DNA from: an uncultured Clostridia bacterium | GTDB taxonomy: Bacteria > Bacillota > Clostridia > Christensenellales > Borkfalkiaceae | Length of the DNA stretch: 32,394 nt | Assembly (NCBI GenBank): GCA_947625025.1 | Contig: CANQMQ010000018.1 | Coordinates: 1-32,394, forward strand | Reading direction: 5' to 3' | In this document: piece after piece, positions 19,535 through 24,169 of the stretch | Layout: each line of letters starts with the position of its first letter | Position numbering within the stretch: the first letter of the stretch is position 1 | Made by a program: the position numbers and the translations under genes | Notes under the pieces: model-generated | What the model was told of the DNA's origin: nothing | Seen by the model: the letters and a program-made list of their open reading frames with translations, nothing else | The model's database searches: none

Positions 19535-19573
19535 GGGGCGCGGGACGTGCAATCGCACGTCCCGCGCCCCTAT
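19535..19573. repeat. 39-bp palindromic repeat, copy 1 (left edge of the defence island; terminator-like)
   Basis: A perfect 16-bp inverted repeat (19535-19550 with 19555-19570) has an AATC centre and is followed by TAT. It is identical over 39 bases to 21913-21951. It lies between the helicase stop and the stop of the minus-strand regulator, so it can terminate both, though it has no long T-run. Confidence 0.88.
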
Positions 19574-19579
19574 ATGATA

Positions 19580-19789
19580 TCAATATTCTTTTCTTCCGAG
19601 AAGATAATCGACGGAGACATCCAAAATGTTTGCAATCTTTGTCAGGTTCTCAAGCGTCGGCTCGCTCGTCCCGCTCTCGTAACGGATATAGGAAGGTTGG
19701 GAGATCCCGAGCTTTTCCGCCATTTGTCGTTGCGTAAGATGGCATAGCCCCCGCATTTCTTTCAAACGTTCACAAAAAATTCTCATCAT
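19580..19789 (-). CDS. XRE-family regulator resembling a restriction-modification controller (C) protein
   Basis: A 69-residue DNA-binding protein consisting of little more than one HTH_3 domain: LTQRQMAEKLGISQPSYIRYESG, then PTLENLTKIANILDVSVDYLLG. Its size and fold match C proteins and small phage-type repressors. It is divergent from the methyltransferase gene. On the minus strand a TATAAT (19799-19804) lies nine bases before the first of two adjacent ATGs (19787 or 19784) with no ribosome site. That gives a predicted leader of two or three bases, as reported for several C proteins. It most likely binds the two palindromes in the intergenic region and controls both promoters. Confidence 0.85.
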   Translation of the reverse strand: MMRIFCERLKEMRGLCHLTQRQMAEKLGISQPSYIRYESGTSEPTLENLTKIANILDVSVDYLLGRKEY

Positions 19790-19792
19790 GTA

Positions 19793-19821
19793 TTGACAAT
19801 TATAGCCGTTTGCTATATACT
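19793..19821 (+). promoter_or_regulatory. Consensus promoter of the methyltransferase-nuclease operon
   Basis: TTGACA (19793-19798), 17 bases, TATACT (19816-19821). The left operator fills the spacer and overlaps the -10. The minus-strand -10 (TATAAT, 19799-19804) of the regulator lies inside the same spacer, so the two promoters overlap. Confidence 0.85.
19801..19817. promoter_or_regulatory. Operator 1, palindrome TATAGC-CGTTT-GCTATA
   Basis: Two 6-base arms around a 5-base centre. It shares AGCNGTTTGCTAT with operator 2, whose centre is 31 bases away (about three helix turns). It overlaps the -10 boxes of both divergent promoters. Confidence 0.75.
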
Positions 19822-19831
19822 TATGCTGTTT

Positions 19832-19848
19832 GATAGCGGTTTGCTATC
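19832..19848. promoter_or_regulatory. Operator 2, palindrome GATAGC-GGTTT-GCTATC
   Basis: The same architecture and core as operator 1. It lies just downstream of the predicted methyltransferase transcription start (about 19828) and upstream of the GAGGAAG ribosome site. Confidence 0.75.
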
Positions 19849-19869
19849 AAAACAAGAGAGGAAGAGCAA

Positions 19870-20799
19870 ATGGCGAAGAACGAGAGCCTGCACAAGGCAC
19901 GGGAAGCGAAGCAGGATGAATACTATACCCAAATTTCCGATATCGAGCGCGAACTCGTCCATTACGAGGAACATTTTCAGGATAAGGTCGTCTTTTGCAA
20001 CTGCGACGACCCTGCTTGCAGCAACTTTTGGCGGTACTTTCAATTAAAGTTCTATCAACTCGGGCTCAAAAAGCTCATCTCCACGCACTATGAAGCGCAG
20101 GCGCCGAGTTATAAGATGGAGATCGTGCGGAAGGAGAGGGGGAAGCAAATCGGCATTCCCGAATATGTGCAGACCCCGCTCCATGGAAACGGAGACTTCA
20201 GAAGCGAGGAGTGCATTGAAATTCTGAAGGGAGCGGATATCGTCGTCACCAATCCACCCTTCTCCCTCTTCCGTGAATACCTTGCCCAACTCATCGAGTA
20301 CGGGAAGAAGTTCGTCATTATTGCCAATCTCAATGCAGTTACCTATAAGGAAGTTTTTCCGCTCCTCAAAAACAATCGGATATGGCTCGGATACAAGAGC
20401 GGGGCGCAGAGCTTTGCCGTTCCCGATACCGTTGAGCGGAATAATACTTACTACCTCCACGGGCAGAAGTATGCGAAGTTCGGAAATATCTGTTGGTTTA
20501 CCGATCTCGATATCCCAAAACGCCATGAAGAGCTCATCTTGGTAAAGCGGTATTGCGGGCACGAAGAGGAATATCCGAAGTACGATCATTATGATGCCAT
20601 CGAAGTGGGGAAACTTTCGGATATCCCGTGCGATTACGGTGGGGTGATGGGGGTCCCCATCACCTTCATCGAGAAGTATAACCCCGATCAATTTGAAATT
20701 TTGGGGCTTGACGACCATCGTGTCCCGTGGCGCGGGCGAGGCCCCGATTTGAACGGAAAAGCGATGTACCGCAGAATCATCATAAGGAGAAAGAAATGA
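19870..20799 (+). CDS. EcoRI-family adenine-specific DNA methyltransferase
   Basis: A 309-residue protein close in size and motifs to M.EcoRI (326), which methylates the inner A of GAATTC. Visible motifs: DEYYTQ (residues 16-21), the family's FCNCDDPACSNFWRYF (42-57), and the N6-adenine catalytic NPPF (128-131). The C-terminal half (ICWFTDLDIPKRHEEL, LDDHRVPWRGRGP) would carry target recognition. The target site cannot be read from sequence; GAATTC is only the default guess. A GAGGAAG site precedes the ATG. The stop overlaps the next start (ATGA). Two 60-base rows I counted (20281 and 20461) are 43-45% GC, against 55-58% for two rows in pncB and aspS, which suggests acquisition. Confidence 0.9.
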   Translation: MAKNESLHKAREAKQDEYYTQISDIERELVHYEEHFQDKVVFCNCDDPACSNFWRYFQLKFYQLGLKKLISTHYEAQAPSYKMEIVRKERGKQIGIPEYVQTPLHGNGDFRSEECIEILKGADIVVTNPPFSLFREYLAQLIEYGKKFVIIANLNAVTYKEVFPLLKNNRIWLGYKSGAQSFAVPDTVERNNTYYLHGQKYAKFGNICWFTDLDIPKRHEELILVKRYCGHEEEYPKYDHYDAIEVGKLSDIPCDYGGVMGVPITFIEKYNPDQFEILGLDDHRVPWRGRGPDLNGKAMYRRIIIRRKK

Positions 20800-21875
20800 A
20801 GATAGAGTTACATAAAATTCCCGTAAGGAAGGTGTATGAAGGGTATAAAAACAATGAGGAAGAGGGGGTCGTGGGGTATGGCGGGAAGCTGAATATCCGC
20901 CCCAAATATCAGAGGGAATTTGTCTACAAGGATAAGCAGAGGGATGCCGTCGTCGATACCGTCCGCAAGAATTTCCCGCTCAACGTCATGTATTGGGTGG
21001 TGAACGGGGACGGCTATGAGGTGCTCGACGGCCAACAGCGTACGCTCTCCCTCTGCGAATATATCAAGGGAAATTTTTCCATCGATTACAAGTACTTCTT
21101 CAACCTGCAGAGGGAGGAACAGGAACAGATCCTCAACTACGAGCTCATGGTCTACTTCTGTGAGGGGACGGATCGGGAGAAGCTCGATTGGTTCCGCATT
21201 GTGAATGTTGCGGGGGAGAAGCTCACCGAGCAGGAACTTCGCAACGCCGTCTATGCGGGGCCGTGGCTCTCCGATGCGAAGCGGTACTTCAGTAAAACAA
21301 ATTGCCCCGCGAAGGTATTGGGAGAGCCCTTCATGAGCGGAAGCCCCATTCGGCAGGAATATCTCGAGCGGGTGCTTCTCTGGATCTCGGAGGGCAAGAT
21401 CGAGAATTACATGTCTTATCATCAATTTTCCCCCAACGCCAACGAGCTTTGGCTGTATTACAACAACGTCGTAAATTGGGCAAAGGTGCTCTTCCCCACC
21501 CTGCGGAGGGAGATGAAGGAGGTGCCGTGGGGGCTTCTCTACAACAAGTTTCATCAAAATGCTTACGATGCCGCAGAGCTCGAGGCGAGGGCATCCAAGC
21601 TCATGGCGGACGACGACGTCACCAAGAAAGTTGGCGTCTACGAATACCTCTTCGACGGGGAAGAGAAGCATTTGAGTATCCGTGCCTTCACGCCCGGGAT
21701 GAAGCGGGGCGCCTACGAACGGCAGGGCGGCGTATGCCCCCACTGCGGAAGGGCGTTTCCGATCGAAGAGATGGAGGCGGACCACATTACCCCGTGGCAT
21801 GCGGGCGGCAAGACGGTAGCGGAGAACTGCCAAATGCTCTGCAGGGCGTGTAACCGAACCAAATCGGGGAAATAA
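20796..21875 (+). CDS. DUF262-HNH protein, candidate restriction nuclease partner
   Basis: A 359-residue protein with an N-terminal DUF262 (ParB/GmrS-like nucleotide-binding) domain, with QREFVY at 39-44 and DGQQRT at 78-83, a helical middle, and a C-terminal HNH nuclease with zinc-ribbon cysteines (C314, C317, C349, C352). The catalytic set is D329-H330, N344 and N353 (EADHITPWHAGG, ENCQ, CNRTKSGK). The start is the ATG at 20796 (AAGGAGAAA upstream), which overlaps the methyltransferase stop by four bases. DUF262 proteins include GmrSD and SspE, which cut modified or unmodified phage DNA. Here the position directly behind an EcoRI-type methylase suggests a methylation-controlled nuclease. 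There is no DUF1524 domain, unlike GmrD and SspE. It could also be a type IV-like or unrelated defence protein. Confidence 0.85.
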   Translation: MKIELHKIPVRKVYEGYKNNEEEGVVGYGGKLNIRPKYQREFVYKDKQRDAVVDTVRKNFPLNVMYWVVNGDGYEVLDGQQRTLSLCEYIKGNFSIDYKYFFNLQREEQEQILNYELMVYFCEGTDREKLDWFRIVNVAGEKLTEQELRNAVYAGPWLSDAKRYFSKTNCPAKVLGEPFMSGSPIRQEYLERVLLWISEGKIENYMSYHQFSPNANELWLYYNNVVNWAKVLFPTLRREMKEVPWGLLYNKFHQNAYDAAELEARASKLMADDDVTKKVGVYEYLFDGEEKHLSIRAFTPGMKRGAYERQGGVCPHCGRAFPIEEMEADHITPWHAGGKTVAENCQMLCRACNRTKSGK

Positions 21876-21912: not shown

Positions 21913-21951
21913 GGGGCGCGGGACGTGCAATCGCACGTCCCGCGCCCCTAT
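21913..21951. repeat. 39-bp palindromic repeat, copy 2 (right edge of the defence island; terminator-like)
   Basis: Identical over 39 bases to 19535-19573: a 16-bp perfect stem (21913-21928 with 21933-21948), AATC centre, then TAT. It lies 37 bases after the DUF262-HNH stop and 20 bases from the stop of the minus-strand gene beyond. No other hairpin in the window shares its sequence. Confidence 0.88.
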
Positions 21952-22414: not shown

Positions 22415-24169
22415 ATGTTTTACAGAACGCATACCTGCAACGAACTCCGCAAGGAGGACGTGGGCAAAAAAGTCAAGATCGCGGGGTGGCTCGATTCCAA
22501 GCGCGATAAGGGCGGGCTTCTCTTTGCCGTGATCCGCGATTTCTACGGCGTGACACAGGTCGTCTGCTCGGAAGAGCCCTGCCTTTCCGCCATCCGCGAA
22601 ATTCCCACCGAGTCCACAATTTCGGTGGAGGGGGAAGTGGTACTCCGCTCCGCACCCAATGAAAAGCTCCCTACGGGGCTCATCGAGATCGTGCCCGAGA
22701 AGGTAGAGGTACTCGGAAGGCGCATGACGAACGCCCTGCCCTTCGAGATCAACCGCTCCACCGAGGCGGGGGAGGATGCCCGCCTACGCTACCGTTTCCT
22801 CGATCTGCGCAACCCTGCCGTGAAGGAAAAGATCGTCCTTCGCTCCAAGATCATTGCCGACCTGCGGAGGCTGATGACGGAGCAGGGCTTCTATGAAATT
22901 TCAACGCCCATCCTGACCTCTTCCTCCCCCGAAGGGGCCCGTGACTACATCGTGCCGAGCCGCATCTATCCCGGGGAGTTCTACGCCCTGCCGCAGGCGC
23001 CTCAGCAATATAAACAGCTTCTGATATGTTCGGGGTTCGATAAGTACTTCCAGATCGCGCCCTGCTTCCGCGATGAGGATGCCCGTGCGGACCGTTCTCC
23101 CGGGGAATTCTATCAGCTCGATATCGAGATGGCGTTTGCGACACAGGAGGATGTCTTTGCGGTGCTCGAATCGGTGCTCCCGCCCGTCTTTGCCAAATAT
23201 AGCGGGTGGACCGCGGACATGCCCCCCTTCAAACGCATCCCGTATCGCACTGCCCTCGAGGATTACGGCACCGATAAGCCCGATCTCCGTAACCCTCTCC
23301 TCATCCGCGATGTGACGGAACTCACCGCAAACTGCGGCTTCGACCCCGTCATGCTCAAGCATGTGAAGGCCATTGCGGTGACGGGCGTTCCCGTGCCCCG
23401 CAAGTGGATCGATAAGACGGCGGAGGAGTTCAAGGTAAAGACGGAAGGCGGCGCCATGTATTGGTTTAAGCTCGATGAAAACGGCGCTCCCGCGGGCGGT
23501 ATCTCCAAATTCGTTGCCGAAAACATCTCCGCATGGAAGGAGAGGCTCGGGGTGGAGAAGGATGCCTTTGTCGCCCTCGTCGCAGAGGATAAATTGCAGG
23601 ATGTTCAGAAGCGGGCGGGGATCCTCCGCACCATGCTCGGCACGGGGCTCAATCTCGTTGAGAAGAATGTGTACCGTTTCTGCTGGATCGTAGACTTTCC
23701 GATGTATGAGATCGGGGAGGAGAGCGGGCAGCTCGAATTCTGCCACAACCCCTTCTCGATGCCGCAGGGAGGCCTCAAGGCCCTCGAAGAGCAGGATCCG
23801 CTCGATATCCTTGCCTATCAGTACGATATCGTATGCAACGGCGTAGAGCTTTCCTCGGGCGCCGTCCGTAACCATGACCCCGAGATCATGCTCAAGGCGT
23901 TCTCCCTCATCGGGACGGACAAGAGCGTTGTGGAGAGCAAATTCCCCGCACTCTACCATGCTTTTGAGTACGGCGCACCCCCGCATGCGGGCGTGGCGCC
24001 CGGCATCGATCGGATGGTGATGCTCATCTGCGATACCGTAAACATCCGTGAAGTGATTGCCTTCCCGATGAATGCCAAGGCACGGGACCTCATGATGAAC
24101 GCCCCCTCGCCCGTCGAGAAGCAACAGCTCGACGACGTCCACATCAAACTTGCAGAAAAGAAATCCTAA
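22415..24169 (+). CDS. aspS: Aspartyl-tRNA synthetase (bacterial type)
   Basis: A 584-residue class II synthetase that charges tRNA-Asp. It has an N-terminal OB anticodon-binding domain (about residues 1-110), then the catalytic core: motif 2 region PCFRDEDARADRSPGEFYQLDIEM near residue 213, a large bacterial GAD insertion (about 290-410), and motif 3 APGIDRMVMLICDT near residue 527. It may be discriminating or may also charge tRNA-Asn; the sequence does not decide this. GAGG precedes the ATG at 22415. It is monocistronic, with its own promoter and a strong terminator. Confidence 0.96.
   Translation: MFYRTHTCNELRKEDVGKKVKIAGWLDSKRDKGGLLFAVIRDFYGVTQVVCSEEPCLSAIREIPTESTISVEGEVVLRSAPNEKLPTGLIEIVPEKVEVLGRRMTNALPFEINRSTEAGEDARLRYRFLDLRNPAVKEKIVLRSKIIADLRRLMTEQGFYEISTPILTSSSPEGARDYIVPSRIYPGEFYALPQAPQQYKQLLICSGFDKYFQIAPCFRDEDARADRSPGEFYQLDIEMAFATQEDVFAVLESVLPPVFAKYSGWTADMPPFKRIPYRTALEDYGTDKPDLRNPLLIRDVTELTANCGFDPVMLKHVKAIAVTGVPVPRKWIDKTAEEFKVKTEGGAMYWFKLDENGAPAGGISKFVAENISAWKERLGVEKDAFVALVAEDKLQDVQKRAGILRTMLGTGLNLVEKNVYRFCWIVDFPMYEIGEESGQLEFCHNPFSMPQGGLKALEEQDPLDILAYQYDIVCNGVELSSGAVRNHDPEIMLKAFSLIGTDKSVVESKFPALYHAFEYGAPPHAGVAPGIDRMVMLICDTVNIREVIAFPMNAKARDLMMNAPSPVEKQQLDDVHIKLAEKKS

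Follow-up and report, generated by a model that had tools for sequence, protein, structure and literature searches.

Which protein reads the DNA when a methylase of the EcoRI family is encoded beside a cutter other than R.EcoRI, a nuclease of the PD-(D/E)XK kind? This question is raised by a gene pair in a 32,394-nucleotide stretch of DNA from an uncultured Clostridia bacterium (contig CANQMQ010000018.1 of assembly GCA_947625025.1), referred to at its full length as the window. There, an EcoRI-family N6-adenine DNA methylase (MTase) is followed by a DUF262-HNH nuclease, and a previous reading of the letters without database searches (the sequence-only reading) had proposed that the second protein serves as the cutting arm of the first. 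Comparison with related loci indicates that two segments of the MTase are exchanged while the nuclease stays constant. We consider it probable, from this pattern, that the pair is a restriction-modification (R-M) system with shared specificity, in which the constant nuclease would take its specificity from the MTase.

The features of the pair are listed below. Counts refer to alignments of 114 non-redundant DUF262-linked pairs, 110 of which have complete 'mid' and 'ct' segments; segment types are clusters at 55% identity, and their numbers depend on this threshold.

19870..20799, plus strand: EcoRI-family (PF13651) N6-adenine DNA methylase, 309 amino acids (aa), identified by Pfam profile, PADLOC and an AlphaFold2 (AF2) model.
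20251..20262, plus strand: catalytic motif NPPF, MTase residues 128-131, invariant in a 62-row alignment.
20383..20487, plus strand: 'mid', swappable MTase segment at residues ~172-206, putative target-recognition segment 1, 19 types in the 110 DUF262-linked loci.
20707..20784, plus strand: 'ct', swappable MTase segment at residues ~280-305, putative target-recognition segment 2, 54 types in the same 110 loci.
20796..21875, plus strand: DUF262 (GmrSD_N)-HNH nuclease, 359 aa, identified by Pfam profiles.
21027..21044, plus strand: DGQQRT nucleotide-pocket motif, nuclease residues 78-83, with DGQQR kept in 110 of 110 loci.
21726..21866, plus strand: HNH motif region, nuclease residues 311-357 (PF01844, E = 1.3e-13), similar to the solved HNH structure 4h9d.

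The PF13651 profile covers residues 7-282 of the window MTase at E = 4.4e-121, with 404.8 bits against a curated cut-off of 26.4, and the PADLOC MTase_II model matches it at E = 2.5e-121. Its AF2 model has a mean predicted local distance difference test score (pLDDT) of 87.9 and a predicted template modelling score of 0.86, with a pLDDT of 56 at residues 281-290. Together with the invariant NPPF and with FCNCDDP at residues 42-48, these matches confirm the family and the motifs named by the sequence-only reading. The ATGA coupling overlap that it described is also borne out, the nuclease ATG beginning at 20796 and the MTase stop TGA occupying 20797-20799. The same holds for its DUF262 domain with DGQQRT and intact HNH: PF03235 (GmrSD_N) matches at E = 1.2e-17, and residues D78-G-Q-Q-R82, D329 and H330 of the nuclease are constant in all 110 loci and N344 in 109. 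The window MTase is thus like that of the EcoRI type II system in family and catalytic motif; its partner is unlike R.EcoRI, a different nuclease (PF02963), and so is the gene order, R preceding M in 5 of 5 annotated plasmid records that list both genes.

The closest known relatives of the nuclease lie elsewhere. Its predicted structure resembles the N-domains of BrxU and SspE, plus an HNH domain, and the modelled N-domain is compact, at about 141 residues against 242 for the aligned range of the BrxU chain and 324 for that of SspE. The likeness to the type IV enzymes GmrSD and BrxU comprises a DUF262 domain with DGQQR, an HNH-like cutter and the predicted fold match to BrxU. The window nuclease differs from them in its MTase partner, its compact N-domain and a PF01844 HNH in place of DUF1524, which is absent from its Pfam matches at E ≤ 0.01, where HNH and HNH_5 are listed. 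A helicase domain is likewise absent from its domain matches (GmrSD_N and HNH). The SspABCD-SspE system also couples a DUF262 nuclease to a DNA-modifying partner; unlike there, the adjacent partner here, in 77 of 80 loci, is an EcoRI-family MTase, not phosphorothioation genes (no search elsewhere in the genome was aimed at these), and the N-domain is again the more compact.

The pairing recurs across genomes. A scan of species genomes returned 256 nuclease relatives, and of the best 80 of 256, retained for pairing counts, 77 have a codirectional EcoRI-type MTase upstream of the nuclease. The gap is 25 bp or less, or the genes overlap, in 55 of these 77 loci (by 4 bp in 21). The three unpaired loci (L numbers being our locus handles) are L006 and L057, with 194 and 463 bp of upstream sequence, and L017, where the contig starts 2285 bp before the nuclease. 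The titles of the records include Clostridia, Bacteroidales, Patescibacteria, Treponema and archaea. Within the order of the window organism, the MTase was found in 31 of 297 genomes and a nuclease match at E ≤ 1e-10, in some cases partial, in 30. A nuclease match accompanies 25 of the 29 same-order MTase loci other than that of the window, and the four without one comprise two at contig edges and two (L101, L106) by an apparent cytosine-methylase gene; an R.EcoRI match was found in 0 of the 29.

The absence of any recurrent association between the two families is therefore ruled out. A separate EcoRI-like endonuclease that might serve this MTase was sought through PF02963 in the window's genome and gave no match, which is weak evidence of absence as the control genomes gave none either. 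The sequence-only reading had further held that such a cutting arm would be an unusual restriction design. The pairing is real, yet the gene pair itself is not new: PADLOC models both full-length proteins as a type II MTase and REase, its full-length REase_II model matching the window nuclease at E = 1.6e-146, and plasmid annotation places the two genes adjacent. The novelty appears to reside in the seat of specificity, in the MTase segments. By its sequence and conservation, the pair is most likely an R-M system with a DUF262-HNH cutting arm.

The window and its relatives L003, L004 and L005 encode nucleases that are 84-94% identical. Between the MTases of L003 and the window, residues ~168-210 and 280-305 are only 31% and 23% identical, set in a flanking core of 84-90%; between L005 and L004 the second block alone has diverged (36%, against 94-96% elsewhere). 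Across the 110 loci, the mid and ct types occur in 86 combinations. Near-alike nucleases form 12 clusters, with more than one mid type in 7 and more than one ct type in 10; the largest, made up of 16 loci whose nucleases are at least 78% identical, includes 6 mid and 11 ct types. Two contigs of one metagenome-assembled genome (MAG), L028 and L052, have nucleases 94% and MTase cores ~89% identical with unrelated mid and ct, with the caveat that a MAG can mix strains. In L078, L113 and L171, two MTases of different mid and ct precede a single nuclease (the first MTase of L171 is cut by the locus edge).

The same pattern holds in aggregate. Mantel comparison of the nuclease with the MTase core gives r = 0.72 over the 110 loci, establishing their co-inheritance, and the corresponding values are 0.19 for mid and 0.17 for ct. 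For the 79 loci whose nearest nuclease neighbour is at least 80% identical, the mid type is common to both in 33% and the ct type in 9%. A scan over 646 pairs for 20-residue stretches of the nuclease that follow the type of either segment gave none, with a family-wise p of 0.63 for mid and 0.83 for ct. In the predicted structure, mid precedes the strand at 207-211 and falls within the part alignable to M.TaqI; ct lies in the C-terminal part. All of this evidence is comparative, the pairs are not independent of one another and many of the loci come from metagenome assemblies; with that proviso, we infer that mid and ct set the DNA specificity.

These results bear on two readings drawn from the kinship of the nuclease. 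In the first, the nuclease would resemble GmrSD and BrxU in attacking modified phage DNA, the MTase being unrelated or protective. Such a role would suit the DUF262 kinship and the BrxU fold match, but it sits badly with the near-constant pairing with an EcoRI-family MTase, with the r = 0.72 co-inheritance and with a Pfam assignment to HNH, not DUF1524, and we hold it to be very improbable. In the second, the nucleoside triphosphatase (NTPase) domain of the nuclease would read any self N6-methyladenine (m6A) and attack DNA without the mark, regardless of the sequence read by the MTase. This would account for a constant nuclease beside a variable MTase, BrxU and SspE are among the nearest predicted folds, and SspE is described as sensing a self mark. 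However, the compactness of the modelled N-domain suggests that sensor-sized insertions are missing, and context-free sensing of m6A would require a new kind of recognition, which makes this reading distinctly unlikely.

MTases linked to R.EcoRI, a nuclease with a fixed target, provided a control for the shared-specificity reading. Of 22 records with an R.EcoRI match (19 from plasmids, one from a phage and two viral contigs), 10 were fetched, yielding 8 complete R.EcoRI-adjacent MTases (L111, L115, L165, L166 and L174-L177), whose R.EcoRI partners share 0.45-0.92 pairwise identity, the lowest values involving the partial L166. All 8 MTases have one mid and one ct type, so that both segments are fixed in the EcoRI system, and nearest neighbours have both types in common in 8 of 8 cases. 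At a core identity of 0.60-0.70, the 15 pairs of the EcoRI group have a mid identity of 0.71-0.76 and a ct identity of 0.80-0.83; for the 3398 DUF262 pairs the figures are 0.29-0.31 and 0.15-0.16. At a core identity of 0.80-0.95 the mid gap narrows (0.93 versus 0.65) and the ct gap persists (0.91 versus 0.30). A third variable stretch, v1 (residues 71-99), has no extra conservation in the EcoRI group at a core identity of 0.60-0.70 (0.15-0.36 versus 0.24-0.32). Among 2000 random draws of 8 DUF262 loci whose mean nuclease identity equalled or exceeded that of the R.EcoRI set, none had a single mid or a single ct type. Of the 110 DUF262-linked MTases, 6 have the mid type of the EcoRI group and 4 its ct type, and none has both. 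Since mid and ct are constant beside the fixed-target R.EcoRI and v1 is not, mid and ct behave as expected of recognition segments.

The control also bears on whether mid and ct diversify to evade phage-encoded inhibitors instead of changing targets. Phages do meet this family, 12 phage records carrying an EcoRI-family MTase and three mycobacteriophages retaining a 50-aa piece of the nuclease by theirs; yet the same segments are conserved in R.EcoRI-linked MTases, which presumably also face phages, and we give this explanation only the slightest weight. Two side observations concern the R.EcoRI comparison. By pattern, an EF-hand-like Asp-rich loop is present between MTase residues 60 and 170 in 55 of 110 DUF262-linked and 0 of 8 EcoRI-linked MTases, possibly a calcium-binding or docking insert. 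In Acinetobacter schindleri (L178:1417-3307) an R.EcoRI homologue lies by a methylase unmatched in EcoRI-family searches, and R.EcoRI therefore appears to change partners too.

In some relatives, several ct segments are carried by one locus. Extra copies, sought with a profile of the MTase C-terminal domain, form arrays at eight distinct loci (L002, L040, L049, L089, L091, L099, L110 and L138), in which a (GACA)n-type repeat of at least 12 units is followed by one or two more C-terminal cassettes in other frames. In L049, L089, L091 and L099 the upstream MTase is present and stop-free into the repeat, which falls inside the first ct; the other four array contigs (L002, L040, L110 and L138) start or stop at the repeat. 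Past the repeat, frame 1 runs for 13-15 codons and completes the first ct, frame 2 runs for 68-78 codons and ends the second cassette, and frame 3, where intact, runs for 131-166 codons and ends the third. Seven arrays have a third cassette (L099 is the exception), and in six of them its frame is open; in L138 a single stop interrupts it. When the codon order of the cassette-2 frame was shuffled, six open passages had a joint chance of about 9e-8, the arrays being homologous and hence not independent. The present frame leads to C-terminus 1 in L049 (Selenomonas flueggei), to C-terminus 2 in L089, to C-terminus 3 in L091 and to a stop in L099.

Arrays occur in 5 of the 31 same-order MTase genomes (G019, G029, G058, G088 and G269), and each of the 8 arrays is followed by a DUF262-HNH gene at least 330 aa long, in its own locus or in one that overlaps it. 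Among the best 120 of 7998 protein relatives of the L089 MTase, 18 have two C-terminal domains; by reading, 7 of these have a TDRQ-type run of at least two units and 5 an EEKRR-type run, which suggests that different repeat units have served between C-terminal domains. The window ct reads as the same kind as cassette 3 of L002 and L089 (DNA identity 0.80 and 0.76 over ~152 bp), and no such repeat tract was seen in the window MTase gene, which looks like a fixed version of one choice, the cassette-3-like one. Slippage in the arrays, which may take place in living cells, would give the MTase one of up to three C-termini while the nuclease next to it stays unchanged.

Both the control and the arrays can be set against a conventional type II design, in which the nuclease recognises the MTase's sequence alone and the variable MTase segments do not set that sequence. 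PADLOC labels the two proteins REase_II and MTase_II, the operon layout is compatible with such a design, and M.EcoRI, of the same family, is a classical type II enzyme. The segments that are constant with R.EcoRI (one type in 8 of 8) are nevertheless swapped with the DUF262-HNH partner. A frame-switching MTase beside an independent, constant nuclease would moreover leave host sites exposed, so that a fixed-target nuclease could not survive the switch unless the target were left unchanged. Because the putative specificity segments are uncoupled from the nuclease and frame-selectable in relatives, an EcoRI-like type II design is argued against, and we consider it unlikely. Of the sequence-only reading, which is supported in part, the cutting arm stands as a component of a recurrent, co-inherited pair that is most likely an R-M system.

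In the shared-specificity mechanism that we propose, mid and ct would be the modules by which the MTase binds its target, and the MTase would methylate adenine. The DUF262-HNH protein, having no sequence specificity of its own, would dock on, or be recruited by, the MTase at unmethylated targets, where the DGQQR NTPase pocket would gate the nuclease and the HNH domain would cut. Exchange of MTase segments would then retarget marking and cutting together, permitting free swapping between lineages, and in some relatives a slipping tetranucleotide repeat would select one of up to three C-terminal segments. The joint action of the two proteins, the gating by nucleoside triphosphate and the m6A activity are likewise deduced. 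The bolder proposition, a shared-specificity system outside types I and III in which a single-chain m6A MTase with interchangeable target segments would guide the compact NTPase-nuclease and, in several lineages, a GACA (or apparent pentanucleotide) three-frame switch would retarget both activities at each slippage, is one on which we find the evidence evenly balanced.

Several observations weigh against shared specificity. Within the main clade (99 loci), the Mantel r of the core falls to 0.48, with 0.20 for mid and 0.09 for ct. Two of the 12 nuclease clusters, both of them pairs, are without a swap, and 67% of the 15 nuclease pairs more than 90% identical have the same mid. On the nuclease tree, mid takes at least 62 changes against a shuffled mean of 77, and ct 89 against 97; segment types are loosely, not fully, independent of descent, being non-random on that tree. 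The EcoRI control has only 8 members, and its pairs are not independent. No clear docking surface emerges on the MTase, because 93 of the 111 positions conserved with DUF262 partners are also conserved with R.EcoRI. Finally, the filing of the pair as type II in databases implies independent recognition.

Type III systems offer the closest parallel in design. The window family likewise has swappable MTase segments and a constant, presumably nucleotide-using nuclease, a likeness of sequence pattern with a putative role of the segments in reading DNA, and the repeats in relatives would correspond to the repeat-driven phase variation of type III MTase genes. The type III Res subunit is described as a helicase-nuclease (PMC4005696), unlike the DUF262-HNH nuclease. 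Repeat phase variation is known in type I and type III genes (PMC7394358, PMC11868660), and in type I S genes and type III M genes recognition domains are known to move (PMC3983042). The repeat in relatives of the window differs from the type III case in that it would pick among C-termini, beyond ON/OFF switching. Nearer in this respect is the type I hsdS gene of NgoAV, where a change in repeat length yields full-length or truncated HsdS with different specificity (PMC7394358). The likeness is that repeat length alters the specificity of the product, and the difference is that the relatives here have up to three alternative C-termini, in three frames, on a stand-alone MTase. In the open-access literature searched, no report of the MTase/DUF262-HNH pair or of a three-frame choice was found.

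If the shared-specificity reading is true, a widespread pair filed as ordinary type II would be a separate restriction design in which the MTase reads the target for both activities, and specificity would be exchangeable with no need for the nuclease to evolve anew. The three-frame repeat switch would go further than ON/OFF phase variation by letting one gene select from several recognition segments, and a cell could change its immune specificity in one slippage event. The reading raises a testable question about the role of the DUF262 NTPase in a system that leaves the finding of the site to the nuclease's partner, and an MTase that retargets its nuclease could help to make new DNA-cutting specificities in vitro.

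The pair and its MTase also occur in varied surroundings. In a minority of loci (L010, L016, L028, L029, L032, L068, L072, L075 and others), accessory open reading frames (ORFs) lie between MTase and nuclease; they look GIY-YIG-like and RhuM-like by eye, names that come from reading, with no profile search. One form of the MTase lies inside a 2.1-kb Lactiplantibacillus plantarum gene annotated dcm (L122:2180-4282). The MTase is also present near optrA on an Enterococcus hirae plasmid (L114), and the pair near erm(A) on an E. faecium plasmid (L118). In the Mycobacterium phages Hami1 (L117:4565-4717), Norz (L179:3062-3214) and Marchy (L180:3065-3217), the 50-aa ORF after the MTase corresponds to the N-terminal ~46 residues of the DUF262-HNH nuclease, and it looks as though these phages had captured the pair and retained just the beginning of the cutter.

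The following features surround the pair in the window.

19580..19789, minus strand: XRE-family regulator, 69 aa, divergent (HTH_3, E = 4.8e-19), with counterparts in L004 (81% identical) and L005 (83%).
19793..19821, plus strand: promoter-like site of the MTase-nuclease operon, TTGACA-17 bp-TATACT, read from the sequence.
19801..19817, no strand: operator-like palindrome 1, TATAGC-5-GCTATA, read from the sequence.
19830..19850, no strand: operator-like palindrome 2, TTGATAGC-5-GCTATCAA, read from the sequence, its arms preserved in L004 and L005.
19535..19570, no strand: 36-bp near-palindrome, left copy, an exact direct repeat of the right copy.
21913..21948, no strand: 36-bp near-palindrome, right copy, an exact direct repeat of the left copy.

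The sequence-only reading had described a divergent, C-protein-like XRE regulator. The XRE gene and its divergence hold by HTH_3, but the C-protein label is not established: the match to the PADLOC control_protein model is weak (E = 3.6e-05), and that to NCBIfam RstR is stronger (E = 1.6e-21), yet under RstR's own curated cut-off. The promoter-like hexamers occupy 19793-19798 (TTGACA) and 19816-19821 (TATACT), and L004 and L005 have TTGACA-17-TATAAT 5' of the MTase. Both palindromes are perfect. The first sits between -35 and -10, sharing 2 bp with -10, and is preserved in L004 and, with one changed spacer base, in L005; the second lies just downstream of the hexamers. Neither was seen in L003, whose XRE protein is different (44% identical). 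The XRE gene and these candidate operators are compatible with local repression of the operon.

The two copies of the 36-bp near-palindrome flank the module as direct repeats, and could represent an insertion boundary or a duplicated terminator. No further site was found in the genome at up to 3 mismatches, and no exact copy in 20 relatives. The module lies near aspS in the window (22415-24169), in L004 (7559-9304) and in L005 (5033-6427), with a spacing or orientation relative to aspS that differs among the three, which suggests that it occupies a variable site beside this core gene.

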